In this document: in pieces, positions 2,489 to 8,459 of the stretch
Numbering within the stretch: the first letter of the stretch is position 1
Layout of the letters: each line of letters begins with the position of its first letter
DNA from: Fibrobacter sp.
Lineage (GTDB): Bacteria; Fibrobacterota; Fibrobacteria; Fibrobacterales; Fibrobacteraceae
DNA length: 40,068 bases
Assembly (NCBI GenBank): GCA_024398965.1
Contig: JAKSIF010000024.1
Location: 1-40,068 of the forward strand
Direction of reading: 5' to 3'
Notes under the pieces: model-generated
Databases searched by the model: none
What the model saw: the letters and a program-made list of their open reading frames with translations, nothing else
What the model was told of the DNA's origin: nothing
Made by a program: the position numbers and the translations under genes

Positions 2489-3628
2489 TTGGCTTTAGGA
2501 TTAATTGCAAAGATACGTGGAGTACGTGAAACCATCGGAATTGATGTTGGTCATTACAGCATCAAGTACGTTAAGGTGCTTCACAATGCCAACGGTGGTC
2601 GAATTGTTGTTGATGCAGACTTGGAAAAGGTTCCTGATGGCGCCATCATCAATGGCGAGATCCAGGCCGCAGAAGAGGCTGTAGAGGGCGCAGAAAAGAC
2701 CGAAAAGAAAGGCGAGGACCTGCTTGCCGATGCCCTTAACAAGCTTCTCCTCCGTCATCCGGGGGAAGATTCCGCTGATGTGGTTGTTTCCGTGAACTGC
2801 GGTGCCGGTGCTGGTGGTGTTCTTGTAGACCGCCTTTCCGTGAAGGTGCCTAAAAACGGCAATGAAGCTGCAATTATTCTTCAGACCGCCCAGTCCCGTC
2901 CGCCCTTTGATGACCAGGACAACGTGATCGACTACGAAGTCGCTTCCAGGGAAGGGGACGAAGTCAAGGCCAACGTGGTTGCTGCAAAAAGCGCCCTGCT
3001 GGACTCCTGGGCAAAGTTCTTTGTTCGCCGCGGGGTCCGACCGGCAGCCATGGACGTAGATATCTTTGGCCTCCTGAATGCGTTTGTTACAACTGCTGAA
3101 CCTAAGGATCTTGAAGCTACCACCGCAATTTTCAACATTGGTGAAAAGAAGATGAGCGTGGTTTTTGTGCAGGATGGTAAGTTCCATTCTATGCGATCCA
3201 TGACCGGTGGTGCGCTGGATATGGTTATCAGCAAGACCTGCATGAACTTGAATATTGATGCTGAAAAGTGTCATGAAATTTTTGACAAGAGTGACATGTC
3301 CATCGTGGATGGATTCTCTGAAGCAGAAGTGGAAACCGCTCTTAAGCTGGCTTACGAAGACGTAATGGCCCAGATTGATTTCGGTATCCGTTACTTCTCT
3401 ACATCCGATGACGCCAAGAATTTGGACAAGATTCTTTTGGGTGGCGGTGGCGCTGCAATTCCTGGTCTTAAGGAATTCATCGCAGAACGCTCCGGCATTG
3501 AAACTGATACGGTGAATCCCTTCCGCCTGGCAGAATGTGATGAAAAGGTTTTCGGAGAAAATGGTATTTCCATTGCCCTTTCTAACATCTACGCTCCGGC
3601 TCTGGGCCTTGCAATGAGGAAGTTCTAA
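2489..3628 (+). CDS. pilM: Type IV pilus inner-membrane platform protein PilM (actin-like ATPase fold)
   Basis: This 379-residue cytoplasmic protein of the PilM/FtsA-like fold starts its first phosphate-binding segment at IGIDVGHYSIKYVKV (about 16-30). The second phosphate loop NIGEKKMSV and the adenosine-side LGGGGAAIPGL segment follow in the expected order. PilM binds the N-terminal tail of PilN on the cytoplasmic face and joins the PilN/PilO/PilP alignment complex to the motor. The start is TTG at 2489, with GGAG at 2478-2481 seven bases upstream; no ATG gives a comparable start. Residues about 55-75 hold an acidic/lysine-rich insertion. It is the first gene of the operon, and its stop overlaps pilN as TAATG. 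Confidence 0.9.
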   Translation: MALGLIAKIRGVRETIGIDVGHYSIKYVKVLHNANGGRIVVDADLEKVPDGAIINGEIQAAEEAVEGAEKTEKKGEDLLADALNKLLLRHPGEDSADVVVSVNCGAGAGGVLVDRLSVKVPKNGNEAAIILQTAQSRPPFDDQDNVIDYEVASREGDEVKANVVAAKSALLDSWAKFFVRRGVRPAAMDVDIFGLLNAFVTTAEPKDLEATTAIFNIGEKKMSVVFVQDGKFHSMRSMTGGALDMVISKTCMNLNIDAEKCHEIFDKSDMSIVDGFSEAEVETALKLAYEDVMAQIDFGIRYFSTSDDAKNLDKILLGGGGAAIPGLKEFIAERSGIETDTVNPFRLAECDEKVFGENGISIALSNIYAPALGLAMRKF

Positions 3629-4239
3629 TGGCTGCAAAGAAGAAAGAAGTGACGAAGCAGGCACTGGCAATTTCCATTAACCTGTTGCCTCCGGAATATC
3701 GTAAGAAGCAGAAGGATTTCTCCTGGTTTACAGACCGTCGTGTGATTTGGCCTGTAGTGGGACTTATTGTAACCATCGTTGCAGCAGTGATGCTCTTCGC
3801 TTATGTGGACGAATCCGTTCGTCATCTGAACGATGAAGTTGCTCGAGTAAGAGCTGAAGTTGAACGTGAACGTCCGCTGCTCACCAAGATTAGCGATCTT
3901 GAACAAAAGCAGGGCGTGGTCAATACCAAGATCAACGCTCTCAAGTCAATCCAGGTCAACAAGAAGCGCTGGATTATCTTGTTCGAAAACATTTCCTCTG
4001 TGCTTCCGCCCAACATGTGGGTGACGAGCATTAACCAGATGGGCGAGTATGATATTGAAATGAAGGGTGTTACCTTCGATTTCTCTGAAGTCGCCGAGTA
4101 TATGGTGAAGCTTGAAAAGCAGGTGAGTGTGCAGACTGTCTCCTTGGTAACCATCTCTACCACAAAGGTGGATGGCGAAGAGGCCTATAACTTTACCATA
4201 AAGGTGGTCCTGAATAGGGACCTCAATGGGGAGGGTTGA
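3628..4239 (+). CDS. pilN: Type IV pilus alignment protein PilN
   Basis: This 203-residue bitopic protein has a short cytoplasmic N-terminus with the PilM-binding motif (ISINLLPPEYR, about 12-22), one membrane helix (about 36-57), a coiled-coil stalk (about 60-105) and a ferredoxin-like periplasmic domain. PilN pairs with PilO, and its N-terminal INLLP segment docks into PilM. The ATG shares its A with the last base of the pilM stop, so the two genes are probably translationally coupled. Order and length match standard pilMNOPQ loci. Confidence 0.9.
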   Translation: MAAKKKEVTKQALAISINLLPPEYRKKQKDFSWFTDRRVIWPVVGLIVTIVAAVMLFAYVDESVRHLNDEVARVRAEVERERPLLTKISDLEQKQGVVNTKINALKSIQVNKKRWIILFENISSVLPPNMWVTSINQMGEYDIEMKGVTFDFSEVAEYMVKLEKQVSVQTVSLVTISTTKVDGEEAYNFTIKVVLNRDLNGEG

Positions 4240-4240
4240 T

Positions 4241-4840
4241 ATGGGTGGTATAGACTTTAAAGACAAGAAAAACATATTTGCCCTTGTGATTATCGCCGTA
4301 ATCCTACTGGGTGGTTACTACATGTACGATTACGTGTGGAATCCGTTCGTACTGGAACGCGAAGGATTGGAACGTGATTTGCAGTCCGCTCAGTCTGAAC
4401 TAGACAAGATCAATGCCAAGAAGCACCGTGTTGCCGAGTTGGAATTGCAGCTTGTTCAGGCCGAAAAGGATTTCGAAAAGCTCAAGGAAATGTTCCCGGA
4501 AGAAGAAAAGGTTCCTCTGCGTTTGCAGGACCTGTATTCTGTTTTGCGCAGTTCTGGCGTCCAGATTCAGAAGTTCAATCCTGAAGGCCGTTCGGAACGT
4601 GAACATTACATTGAAAACCGTTATGCAATCGCTGTTAATTCCGGCTATCATATGCTTGGATATCTGTTCGCAGAAATTGCAAACTTCAATTATCCGACCG
4701 CTATTTCCAATTTGAAGCTGAACCGTTATTCCGGTATTGCTGCGGAAATCCAGAAGGCGGAAACTCATGGCTGGACTCCGATTACCATGTCGGTGTCCTT
4801 TAACCTGACCACCTATACATCCAAGAAGGTTGCAAAATGA
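4241..4840 (+). CDS. pilO: Type IV pilus alignment protein PilO
   Basis: This protein of about 199 residues has one membrane helix near the N-terminus (about 12-30), a coiled coil (about 35-85) and a periplasmic ferredoxin-like domain, as in PilO. I chose the ATG at 4241 over the in-frame ATG at 4226. A strong GGGGAGGG (4228-4235) lies five bases before 4241, and the earlier ATG lies inside the end of pilN. PilO heterodimerises with PilN in the inner membrane and contacts PilP. It overlaps the next gene by four bases (ATGA). Confidence 0.88.
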   Translation: MGGIDFKDKKNIFALVIIAVILLGGYYMYDYVWNPFVLEREGLERDLQSAQSELDKINAKKHRVAELELQLVQAEKDFEKLKEMFPEEEKVPLRLQDLYSVLRSSGVQIQKFNPEGRSEREHYIENRYAIAVNSGYHMLGYLFAEIANFNYPTAISNLKLNRYSGIAAEIQKAETHGWTPITMSVSFNLTTYTSKKVAK

Positions 4841-6834
4841 TGAAGTGCAAGTTCCTTCTTTTGTTCGTGATGGCTGCGGTCGCCGCACAGGCGGCTCAGA
4901 TTAAGGATGTGCGTTTGGCTTGCGAATCCAAGGGATGCCAGATGGTGTTCTCCTTTGCTTCGGACAAGGACCTTCCCACATTCTTCCAGAAGTACGATGC
5001 TGCAGCCAAGAAGTTGACCGTCGGTTTTTCCGAGACGACCTTTGCTCTTGGCGAAGGTACTTTTGATGTGGATGCCGATTCCAAGTTCGTGAAGTCCATG
5101 CGTGTCTACAAGGAAGCCTTCCACGGAACAAGCTTCTTGAAGATTGAAATGTCTGTGGGTGCATCCATTGCTACCGACAAAAACGACATTTCTCTGGACA
5201 AGTCCAATTTCAATTTGAAGTTCAAGAGCAAGGGCGGCAAGTCCTGGACTCTTTCCAAGCTTTTTGCTGACAAAAAGAAGGCCGCCGAAAAGCAGGCTCT
5301 CCTGGACAAGAAAGCTGCTGAAAAGGCCAATCTCGAAGAAAAGAAGCGTTTAGCCGAAGAGAAGAAGGCCGCAGAAAAGGCTGCCCTTGAAGAAAAGAAG
5401 GCTGCCGAAAAGCAGGCCGCCGAAGACAAGAAGGCTGCTGCCAAGGCCGCTGCCGAAGAAAAGAAGCGCTTGGCCGAAGAAAAGAAGGCCGCCGAAAAGC
5501 AGGCCGCCGAAGACAAGAAGGCTGCTGCCAAGGCCGCTGCCGAAGAAAAGAAGCGCTTAGCCGAAGAAAAGAGGGCTGCAGAAAAGGCTGCCCTTGAAGA
5601 AAAGAAGCGCCTTGCCGAAGAAAAGAAGGCTGCCGAAAAACAGGCTCTCCTGGACAAGAAGGCTGCAGAAAAGGCTGCCAAGGAAGAAGCTCTTCGCAAT
5701 GCAGAACTTCAGAAGCAAATCGATAAGGCTGTAAAGGAAGGCGGTCCTATTTCCGCCCTCATCGCTAACATCAAGGAAATGACAGTCCTGGTTGGTTCTG
5801 GCATGGAACAGTTCCGCCTGGTGGCAGATTCTCCGATTGAAATCAAGAACGTAAGCGATCCGGATAAGGCTTCCGTCATCACGATTGGTTTGTCTGGACC
5901 TCAGAGATCTCCGCTGTTCAAGATTGGCGCAGGTTCCTTGGTGAAGTCTGTTACCTGGGGTGCAAATGGCGTGAAAATCCAGCTGCAGTCCGGAGCAAAG
6001 CCTGTGGTACTTGTTCAGGACGGTGCGTTGATCCTGCAGACTCGTCACGAAGCTTCCAAGAAGGAAGGTTTCCTGTTCTGGTCTGCCCAGCCCAATGGAA
6101 TCTTCGTTCGTAACTGGACCAAGCCTGTTGAAGAAAATCCGAACTTCGATGCTTTCGTAAAGAAGTTCGAAGGCGAAAGCAAGAAGCTGGTTTCCGGCTC
6201 CCAGACTTTCCACCTCCGTCCTGTGATTCGCGAGTTGATCGTTGTTGCTGATGAAACTGAATTCTATGCTGCTCCCAATGAGGATGCTCAGGTATTACAG
6301 CGTGTTGTCTTTGGCGATCGTCTTGTAAGCCTCGACATTACTGGCCTTTATCGCAAGGTGCAGCTGGGTAACCGCGTTGGTTACGTAAACAAACGCTCGG
6401 TCAGCTTCTTTGATGAACTTTCCTCTGTACAGTCAGAACGCCTGAAACAGGTCGACAAGGAACGCGGCGTTGTGGAAGAAACCTCTGCAACGGTTGCTGG
6501 CAGCCAGTTGGACGATCTTTATGAAGACCGAGTCACTTACAGTTCTTTTGGTCGTCGAGATCCGTTTGTTGAAATTAAGGGCCTGGTGGAAGAAGGCATC
6601 AACATTGACCAGGTTGAACTGATGGGTATCATCTGGGAATCCGAAGTTCCCATTGCTATTCTCGTAGAATCCAAGAATCCTTCCATTTCCTACACTCTTA
6701 AGGAAGGCGACAAGATTCTTAACGGTAAAGTCTTGAAAATTACACAAACTGACGTGCTCTTCCTTATTCAGGAATTTGGTGTGAGCCGCCGCTACTCCAT
6801 GGGTCTTCCCGATAAATTTGGGGGTAAAAAGTGA
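4837..6834 (+). CDS. Pilus alignment protein: AMIN-like, helical rod, AMIN-like, SH3 and PilP domains in one chain
   Basis: This 665-residue secreted protein occupies the pilP position. The order is: signal peptide (1-20); a beta-rich AMIN-like domain (about 21-130); a Lys/Ala/Glu helical rod (about 145-300) with a 29-residue period; a second AMIN-like domain (about 313-402); a bacterial SH3-like domain (about 465-523); and a PilP-type domain (about 568-660) with the FGRRDPFVE and LMGIIW features. PilP links PilN/PilO to the secretin, and AMIN domains bind peptidoglycan and are normally at the N-terminus of PilQ. The signal peptide shows no lipobox, unlike PilP lipoproteins. The rod resembles TolA domain II in composition only. 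It overlaps pilO by 4 bases, and its TGA overlaps the pilQ start. The domain calls are by eye: PilP and SH3 are firm, AMIN is moderate. Confidence 0.82.
   Translation: MMKCKFLLLFVMAAVAAQAAQIKDVRLACESKGCQMVFSFASDKDLPTFFQKYDAAAKKLTVGFSETTFALGEGTFDVDADSKFVKSMRVYKEAFHGTSFLKIEMSVGASIATDKNDISLDKSNFNLKFKSKGGKSWTLSKLFADKKKAAEKQALLDKKAAEKANLEEKKRLAEEKKAAEKAALEEKKAAEKQAAEDKKAAAKAAAEEKKRLAEEKKAAEKQAAEDKKAAAKAAAEEKKRLAEEKRAAEKAALEEKKRLAEEKKAAEKQALLDKKAAEKAAKEEALRNAELQKQIDKAVKEGGPISALIANIKEMTVLVGSGMEQFRLVADSPIEIKNVSDPDKASVITIGLSGPQRSPLFKIGAGSLVKSVTWGANGVKIQLQSGAKPVVLVQDGALILQTRHEASKKEGFLFWSAQPNGIFVRNWTKPVEENPNFDAFVKKFEGESKKLVSGSQTFHLRPVIRELIVVADETEFYAAPNEDAQVLQRVVFGDRLVSLDITGLYRKVQLGNRVGYVNKRSVSFFDELSSVQSERLKQVDKERGVVEETSATVAGSQLDDLYEDRVTYSSFGRRDPFVEIKGLVEEGINIDQVELMGIIWESEVPIAILVESKNPSISYTLKEGDKILNGKVLKITQTDVLFLIQEFGVSRRYSMGLPDKFGGKK
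5404..5577 (+). repeat. 87-bp tandem repeat in the helical-rod coding region (two clean copies)
   Basis: Copy one (5404-5490) and copy two (5491-5577) are adjacent. They are identical over their first 68 bases and then differ at only three positions. Each encodes 29 residues of the Lys/Ala/Glu rod. Flanking DNA (about 5275-5690) carries more degenerate copies of the same KKAAEKQA-type units. The period is a multiple of three, so gain or loss of a copy would change rod length without breaking the frame. Confidence 0.9.
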
Positions 6835-8459
6835 TGAAATCTATGACAAAAATCCTTACTGTACTTCTCCTCGTATTTGGCATTGCCTTTGCTTGGAGTG
6901 CCCCTGCCGAAGGCACTGTTGCCCCGAACAAGAAACTGTATGATTTCAACTTCGTCGATATGGACTACGAAGCGGTGTTCCGCTCTGTTTCCATCATTGC
7001 CGGTGTGGATATCCTTATGGCTCCCGATGTAAAGGGTAAGATCAGCCTTCGCGTGACCAAGAAAACTTGGCAGGAAACCCTGGATATTATTTGTAACATG
7101 AATGACCTCACCTGGGTTATTCAGGACAAGTACATTACCATCCAGCGTTTGGCTTCTTACCAGGCTAAGCAAAAGAAGATTGCCGATGAAGAAGCTCAGG
7201 CTGAGCAGAATGCTCCCTTGGTCCGTAAGAATTTCCCCATCCATCATGCAAAGGCCGATGAACTTATCAAGGTCCTGGAAAGCATGAAGTCTGGCCGCGG
7301 TCGTATTACCTCTGTGGAACGCACCAATTCCATTATCGTGTACGATACCGAAGCTAAGATCGAACAGATGGAAAATGCTCTTGAAGAACTTGATGTGGAA
7401 ACCCTCCAGATCATGATTACTGCAAAGCTGGTTGTTGTCAATAGCGAACGTGCCCGCGAACTGGGTGTGGACTGGACTGCAACTATGGGTAACACAGCCC
7501 TTACTCCGGGTACCGCAGCTGCCGCAACGGGTAGTGCTGCTGGCGCAACCCGTACCAGTGCTGTTGTGCAATCCTTCCCGGGCGGCGGCAAGTCTCCTGC
7601 AGTGGGTAACGCACAGACTGCTGTTACCGCAAGCCTCTTGGATAACAATCTCCAGATTGCCATCAGTAACTTGATGGGTGATGCCTCCACTGAAGTTCTT
7701 GCCAGCCCCCAGGTTTCTACCTTGGACAATACCGAAGCCAAGGTGTTCATGGGTGACAAGGTTTCTATCCGCGTGATCGATGACAGTGGTGAATCTTCTA
7801 CTCAGATGGTAGAAACCGGTATTAAGCTGACAGTGACTCCCCATGTTTCCGGAGACAACCGCATTATGTTGGATCTCCATCCGGAAAACAACTCCTACGA
7901 CTATGACTCCAAGGGCGAAATCGTAATCAGCACCCAGGAAGCACAGACCAAGGTTGTTGTAGCAGATGGTGAAACTGTTGTGATTGGTGGTCTTACCCGT
8001 AACGAAACCCAGGAATCCGAAAGTGGTATCCCGTTCCTGAAGGATATTCCGCTGCTTGGCAACCTCTTCAAGTACTCTCGTAAGTCTGTGGTGAAGAAGG
8101 ACCTGGTCATCTTCGTGACTCCGCGTATCATTCGTAACTACATGGGTAACATTGAAGTTTCTGAACCGACTCGCGAAGCTTCTAGCAAGGACGCTCCCGA
8201 AGCCAAGAAGGTCGAGGCAGCTCCTGAAGCCAAGCCTGTTGAAGCCGCCCCTGCTGCACAGCAGGAAACTGCTCCGGTGGAACAGGCTCCCGCAGAAAAG
8301 GCAGAACCTGCTCCGCAGCCTGCTGCAGAACCGGCTCCGGTTGCACAGCCTGTAGAACCCGCTCCGGTCGCACAGCCCGTTGAGGAAACTCCGGTAGAAC
8401 AGGCTCCCGCAGTGGAAACTCCGGCAGAAGCTCCTGCTGGCGATGACTACGACTGGTAA
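6834..8459 (+). CDS. pilQ: Type IV pilus secretin PilQ, compact form with Pro/Ala/Glu tail
   Basis: Outer-membrane secretin of about 541 residues. After a signal peptide (about 1-24) comes an STN-type N0 domain (about 35-100, DYEAVFRSVSIIAGVDILM), an N1/KH-like domain (about 120-195) and the secretin core (about 200-440). The core contains VLASPQVSTLDN, GIKLTVTPHV and the VIGGLTRNE...GIPFLKDIPLLGNLF signature. No AMIN domain precedes N0. About 100 residues of Pro/Ala/Glu/Val-rich low-complexity sequence follow the core, ending GDDYDW, in place of a recognisable pilotin-binding domain. The upstream TGA overlaps this ATG; an in-frame GTG lies one codon earlier (6831) and ATG 6843 is also possible. 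It is the last gene of the operon. Confidence 0.92.
   Translation: MKSMTKILTVLLLVFGIAFAWSAPAEGTVAPNKKLYDFNFVDMDYEAVFRSVSIIAGVDILMAPDVKGKISLRVTKKTWQETLDIICNMNDLTWVIQDKYITIQRLASYQAKQKKIADEEAQAEQNAPLVRKNFPIHHAKADELIKVLESMKSGRGRITSVERTNSIIVYDTEAKIEQMENALEELDVETLQIMITAKLVVVNSERARELGVDWTATMGNTALTPGTAAAATGSAAGATRTSAVVQSFPGGGKSPAVGNAQTAVTASLLDNNLQIAISNLMGDASTEVLASPQVSTLDNTEAKVFMGDKVSIRVIDDSGESSTQMVETGIKLTVTPHVSGDNRIMLDLHPENNSYDYDSKGEIVISTQEAQTKVVVADGETVVIGGLTRNETQESESGIPFLKDIPLLGNLFKYSRKSVVKKDLVIFVTPRIIRNYMGNIEVSEPTREASSKDAPEAKKVEAAPEAKPVEAAPAAQQETAPVEQAPAEKAEPAPQPAAEPAPVAQPVEPAPVAQPVEETPVEQAPAVETPAEAPAGDDYDW

Follow-up and report, generated by a model that had tools for sequence, protein, structure and literature searches.

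A diverged PilP-like protein of Fibrobacterota carries predicted AMIN domains that its PilQ secretin lacks

The window analyzed here, a stretch of 40,068 nucleotides from a Fibrobacter genome (contig C24), encodes a type IV pilus operon with the gene order pilM-N-O-[P]-Q (Table 1). The gene for P0001 lies between pilO and pilQ, the pilP position, and its product is built in the order signal peptide, first AMIN domain (AMIN1), rod, probable second AMIN domain (AMIN2), bacterial SH3 domain (SH3b) and PilP-type HR domain. Directly upstream of pilM, at 1377–2390 on the forward strand, is a gene for a PilZ-domain protein (E = 1e-8) with an N-terminal hydrophobic segment. Homologs of this protein adjoin pilM in loci across the phylum, and the presence of a PilZ neighbor suggests c-di-GMP control of the Fibrobacter pilus. 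The rod of P0001 is of low complexity and encoded by repeats, as it might be if the protein were an artifact of a wrong start call, of fused ORFs or of a chance low-complexity frame. The odds of such an origin are negligible: an identical architecture is found at 47–77% identity in dozens of genomes, with frames open throughout, and well-folded domains flank the rod on both sides. An artifactual or chance origin of the architecture is ruled out by this conservation.

Table 1 Features of the pilus operon and of the encoded P0001 and P0002 proteins in the window
Feature	Coordinates	Strand	Evidence
pilM	2489..3628	+	Pfam PilM_2, 2.2e-27
pilN	3628..4239	+	Pfam PilN, 9.3e-15
pilO	4226..4840	+	Pfam PilO, 8.2e-15
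PilP-position protein P0001, 665 aa	4837..6834	+	ORF, synteny, phylum-wide homologs
Sec signal peptide MMKCKFLLLFVMAAVAAQA, no lipobox	4837..4896	+	Read from sequence; 66 homolog N-termini compared
AMIN domain 1 (predicted), residues 20–131	4894..5229	+	AlphaFold fold, PDB matches, profile score
A/E/K/R-rich helical rod, residues about 145–300	5269..5736	+	Composition; tandem repeats
Probable AMIN domain 2, residues 312–426	5770..6114	+	All-beta model, profile match
Bacterial SH3b domain, residues 467–529	6235..6423	+	SH3_3 in homologs; fold match
PilP/GspC-type HR domain, residues about 566–660	6532..6816	+	Fold matches
YSSFGRRDPF motif preceding HR	6538–6567	+	Invariant Y568, G572, R574, D575, P576, F577
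pilQ secretin P0002, without AMIN	6831..8459	+	TIGR02515; STN, Secretin_N, Secretin
PilQ subdomains	N0 start about 6945; secretin domain 7680–8135	+	STN, Secretin_N, Secretin

P0001 lacks the lipobox by which PilP is recognized as a lipoprotein, and the N-termini of 66 homologs were plain signal peptides as well, except for four regular-expression lipobox matches of doubtful meaning. Whereas canonical PilP is held in the inner membrane as a lipoprotein (PMC5285504), P0001 has thus lost this lipid anchor too, and an AMIN domain occupies the position at the mature N-terminus held elsewhere by the lipid. This feature, on which the first-pass annotation of the window was silent, is added here from the N-terminus comparison.

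The first-pass annotation placed two AMIN-like domains in P0001, at residues 21–130 and 313–402. An AlphaFold model of residues 1–150 (pLDDT 90, pTM 0.81; pLDDT about 92–98 within AMIN1) was searched against the PDB with Foldseek, which ranked Myxococcus xanthus PilQ and Escherichia coli AmiC first, the top match of AMIN1 being the PilQ AMIN domain. In VIA-align, the same model matched AmiC residues 33–144 (Z 9.9), PilQ residues 33–137 (Z 9.5), Neisseria meningitidis PilQ (Z 7.6), and the B2 AMIN domain of the latter (Z 7.2), and after these four AMIN chains the scores dropped to 5.7 for small heat-shock proteins, which are unrelated. Using an AMIN profile seeded from Pfam-validated cases outside Fibrobacterota, the profile of the N-terminal domain scored 43.8 over 94 columns, against a maximum of 10.7 among column shuffles. 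A profile built from Fibrobacter AMIN1 sequences alone did not beat the shuffles when compared with the AMIN profile directly; the link of AMIN1 to that profile runs via distant homologs and via fold. The Pfam AMIN model (PF11741) had no match at its cut-off in P0001 or anywhere in the genome, profile A3 found no match among PDB sequences, and neither AMIN nor PilP was matched when P0001 alone was searched with NCBIfam and Pfam; the domain calls are therefore based on fold and profile. An HMM of the N-terminal domain matched 59 of 66 PilP-position proteins, with two copies in 13 of them. Together, fold prediction and profile comparison strongly support an AMIN beta-sandwich for residues 20–131, nearly the limits first proposed, and the case for AMIN in P0001, which depended on a predicted AMIN fold in one or the other segment, is upheld by the first of them.

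The second segment is a probable AMIN domain by profile similarity and strand pattern. In the AlphaFold model of residues 296–665 this region is all-beta (pLDDT about 90). Comparing its profile with that of the second AMIN copy in distant homologs gave a score of 28.4 over 118 columns, a value reached by none of 100 shuffles (maximum 16.9); its place in the domain order is also that of the second copy in those homologs. Compared directly with the AMIN profile, the AMIN2 profile was not significant, the shuffles not being beaten, and a PDB search with the whole 296–665 model listed mostly SH3 and PilP chains. A beta domain is thus present where the first-pass annotation placed its second AMIN-like domain, although the limits had been drawn slightly short and are better placed at about residues 312–426.

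The two C-terminal domains were recovered much as first described, with an SH3-like domain at residues 465–523 and a PilP domain at 568–660. The SH3b fold was matched in the 296–665 model with Z 11.0, and Pfam SH3_3 was found in 25 of 37 homologs (best E = 1.5e-16), the match in P0001 itself being weak (E = 0.037). The C-terminus resembles PilP structures 3jc8 (Z 8.6; chain 3jc8_Pa, 3.7 Å over 78 residues), 2lc4 (Z 8.2) and 2y4y (Z 8.0), followed by GspC (3oss, 7.8), and the motif Y-x3-G-x-R-D-P-F ahead of it is invariant in 37 homologs. The Pfam PilP model (PF04351) had no match at its curated cut-off in P0001 or anywhere in the genome, and among the 37 homologs it was found in three (best E = 0.014). 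Because this model was missed, we describe P0001 as a diverged PilP-like protein that would work like PilP.

The neighboring secretin, P0002, scored 285.5 bits against TIGR02515, passing the cut-off of 284.35. It consists of a signal peptide followed by N0 (from residue about 39), N1 and the secretin domain, with no AMIN, which bears out the earlier claim that this PilQ starts directly at N0. A tail rich in Pro, Ala and Glu follows the secretin domain (window 8160–8456) and differs in length among relatives. All 36 Fibrobacterota PilQs examined contain Pfam Secretin and Secretin_N, and none of the 36 has a match to AMIN or the N-domain. A second PilQ/PilP pair of canonical architecture, which would have spoken against the interpretation given in the first-pass annotation, was not found: there is no Pfam PilP in the genome, and the sole other secretin, encoded on contig C18, has an N0 that Pfam assigns to the GspD type and lies among different genes. 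At that locus (L103:1975–4753, G000:C18), the GspD-like secretin is followed by a gene (3707–4753) without a Pfam match, the product of which resembles the GspC/PilP HR domain at its C-terminus, and the locus possibly represents a minimal type II system.

The arrangement of AMIN on PilP and PilQ without AMIN is phylum-wide in Fibrobacterota. Homologs of P0001 were found in 149 of 168 Fibrobacterota genomes, and in 36 of 36 loci, across families and classes, the order pilM-N-O-P-Q and the AMIN-less PilQ were retained, a result that extends the first-pass description from one locus to the phylum. In these loci the PilP-position protein ranges from 324 to 793 residues and PilQ from 416 to 547, and throughout the phylum only the C-terminal hundred residues of the former, with the Y-x3-G-x-R-D-P-F motif, are kept. 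PilP-position proteins of the Fibrimonadaceae type (379–396 aa; loci L039, L041, L042, L081–L083, L133 and L134) retain the middle domain, SH3b and HR. Homologs in family f8, one of which has a tandem pair of SH3b domains (L074:3970–5745), showed no clear AMIN by HMM. G167, a Fibrobacterota genome in which the PilP-position protein was not matched, encodes a stand-alone protein of 311 residues with two AMIN domains (L100:1363–2298). Four small Fibrobacterota genomes of genus g15 in family f4 (G160–G163) gave no match to the PilP-position protein or to the PilQ profile, which may reflect loss of the pilus in this genus.

The rod follows a different pattern. In P0001 it is charged and comprises 160 linker residues, 96% of which are A, E, K, R, Q, L or D, and it is encoded by near-perfect DNA tandem repeats (5273–5675). 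The first-pass annotation suggested that it sets a spacing across the periplasm. As a molecular ruler it would fix the distance between a peptidoglycan-bound AMIN1 and a PilQ-bound HR domain, and a straight helix of this length would indeed reach about 22–24 nm. However, in 30 Fibrobacter proteins the segment between AMIN1 and the middle domain, composed almost wholly of the same seven residues, has a length of 106 to 172 residues, and the rod ranges from 17 to 188 residues in related genera. Most of the phylum has no rod. Other Fibrobacterota families have short ordinary linkers in its place, and proteins of the Fibrimonadaceae type have neither AMIN1 nor the rod. The coding DNA, being made of near-perfect repeats, is also prone to expansion and shrinkage. 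A variable, repeat-encoded rod makes a conserved ruler very unlikely, and we do not retain the claim of fixed spacing; the rod is likelier to be a tether of variable length, which in Fibrobacter would join the two AMIN modules. Domain II of TolA is a long periplasmic helix rich in K, E and A, which the rod may resemble as a helix, whereas the flanking domains are unrelated.

We surveyed the placement of AMIN across bacteria by scanning 84,980 genomes with a PilQ profile, which gave 80 loci, in 79 of which PilQ and its upstream neighbor were readable; Pseudomonas is over-represented in this sample. In 44 loci PilQ alone carried AMIN, and in 24 the PilP-position protein alone did; 11 loci had AMIN on neither protein, and no locus had it on both. 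The 44 loci belong to Pseudomonas, Desulfobacterota, Nitrospirota, Elusimicrobiota, Eisenbacteria, and one bin labeled Heimdallarchaeota, which is probably contaminated. The 24 comprise 20 Fibrobacterota, one Hydrothermota, two WOR-3 and one unplaced bacterium. Pfam-significant AMIN-PilP fusions occur in the Hydrothermota and the unplaced bacterium (L147, 3.4e-11; L151, 7e-7), each beside an AMIN-free PilQ, while the WOR-3 fusions were detected at profile level; outside Fibrobacterota, AMIN on PilP is thus seen again in Caldifarciminota and in a single unplaced lineage. Of the 11 loci with AMIN on neither protein, three are from Fibrobacterota, where the ORF was truncated, wrongly picked or matched weakly, and about two are from Pseudomonas, where PilQ was called too short. 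About six are left outside Fibrobacterota, in KSB1, Omnitrophota and some Nitrospirota; these indicate that a pilus can work without AMIN.

These distributions bear on the proposal of the first-pass annotation that peptidoglycan attachment was transferred from the secretin to the alignment complex. AMIN lies on PilP and not on PilQ throughout the phylum, which fits wall attachment from the side of the alignment complex, and this part of the proposal holds; a literal move of the domain from PilQ is unproven, and an AMIN-less PilQ by itself is common. No transfer need have occurred if AMIN-less PilQ is old and PilP gained AMIN independently, or if AMIN on PilP is ancestral for part of the tree, a history to which we give slightly less than even chances. 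It is consistent with the lineages that have AMIN on neither protein and with the PilQ-core tree, which rejects a single clade for AMIN on PilP and calls for two or more changes, and AMIN is also found on the envelope proteins FliO and PflA (PMC12403147, PMC11870540). Against it, the two proteins were never seen to carry AMIN together, and the top Foldseek match of AMIN1 is the AMIN of PilQ, although AmiC is tied with it by VIA-align and the match is not decisive. A sign test of the alternation between PilQ and PilP on the tree is limited to three to four independent pairs, a number too small for significance. Given the lineages with AMIN on neither protein and the AMIN-less PilQs already known, AMIN may equally well have been recruited to PilP independently as transferred from PilQ. 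The question concerns origin, and a history without transfer is compatible with the wall-anchoring function that we propose for PilP.

We propose that P0001 is probably a diverged type IVa PilP of the alignment complex that bears the peptidoglycan-binding domains of the machine. In Pseudomonas aeruginosa, the AMIN domains of PilQ attach to peptidoglycan and, by way of PilP, recruit PilO (PMC5285504), and in M. xanthus they are required for polar assembly (PMC10653833). By analogy with these studies, AMIN1, the probable AMIN2 and perhaps SH3b would bind peptidoglycan. The HR domain following the RDPF motif would dock on PilQ N0 and the PilN/PilO dimer as in canonical PilP, with the region around the motif contacting PilN/PilO and HR contacting N0. 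P0001 likely works from the PilP side, linking PilQ N0 and PilNO to peptidoglycan; its binding to the wall would fix and localize the secretin and the alignment complex in the envelope, as the AMIN domains of PilQ itself do in Pseudomonas and Myxococcus. The wall-binding domain would then be shifted one step along the PilQ-PilP-PilO chain with the physical link retained, and the occurrence of AMIN on PilP in Fibrobacterota and other lineages, never on both proteins in 79 loci, fits such attachment.

The AMIN folds of PilP might instead form a protein-protein scaffold, contacting for instance PilN/PilO or adjacent PilP copies in the ring, with no binding to peptidoglycan. The domains have diverged beyond the reach of Pfam AMIN, and the AMIN domain of Campylobacter FliO stabilizes FlhB in the membrane (PMC12403147), but peptidoglycan binding has been found for the AMIN domains studied in other systems (PMC5285504, PMC10653833), the adjoining SH3b is often a wall-binding domain, and AMIN on PilP alternates with AMIN on PilQ; we therefore consider a scaffold unlikely. 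Returning to wall anchoring by PilP, we tentatively suggest, at rather less than even odds, that anchoring is a movable module, in which AMIN switched between secretin and alignment protein at least twice (in Fibrobacterota and Caldifarciminota) and, on PilP, also replaced the lipid anchor, so that the wall would hold these pili at the ring in the inner membrane and not at the pore in the outer membrane.

AMIN-less secretins were already known (PMC10653833, PMC3724824), with absence of AMIN linked to peritrichous pili, and pilus placement has been explained from the secretin alone, by whether or not it carries AMIN (PMC10653833). In the literature searched, AMIN was reported on PilQ or another protein, and we found no report of AMIN on PilP. 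Since a whole phylum with AMIN-less secretins carries AMIN on PilP, surveys of AMIN must include PilP, and experimenters working with Fibrobacterota should seek the wall anchor there. Fibrobacter is a cellulose degrader of the rumen in which pili are implicated in attachment to cellulose, and P0001 offers a defined protein with deletable domains for testing in such an organism. The published pilus gene inventory of Fibrobacteres, as we read it, lists PilM, N, O and Q and no PilP (PMC4704652). P0001 is likely the PilP missing from that list, and the placement of the wall-anchoring domains on PilP explains why PilP went unrecognized in Fibrobacterota.

Compared with type IVa PilP of Pseudomonas, Neisseria and Myxococcus, P0001 shares the position between pilO and pilQ, the HR fold (Z 8.0–8.6) and an R-(D/S)-P-F motif ahead of the HR domain, but it has 665 residues rather than about 175, no lipobox and a sequence outside the reach of Pfam PilP, and it adds two AMIN-like domains, the rod and SH3b. 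With AMIN-bearing PilQ, AMIN1 has a fold in common (N. meningitidis and M. xanthus, Z 7.2–9.5), whereas in Fibrobacter AMIN is on PilP and PilQ begins from N0. Flagellar FliO and PflA are similar in that they carry a lineage-specific AMIN on a component of an envelope machine (PMC12403147, PMC11870540), but the machine and the partner domains are different. The nearest functional precedent is GspB/OutB, which acts with GspA in type II secretion: its HR domain binds the secretin N0 while its extension lies in the peptidoglycan, so that an HR protein ties N0 to the wall (PMC9239104). Unlike P0001, GspB has a transmembrane segment, belongs to another system and has no AMIN or SH3b described, whereas P0001 has a signal peptide that by inspection is cleavable and is encoded in a type IV pilus operon.
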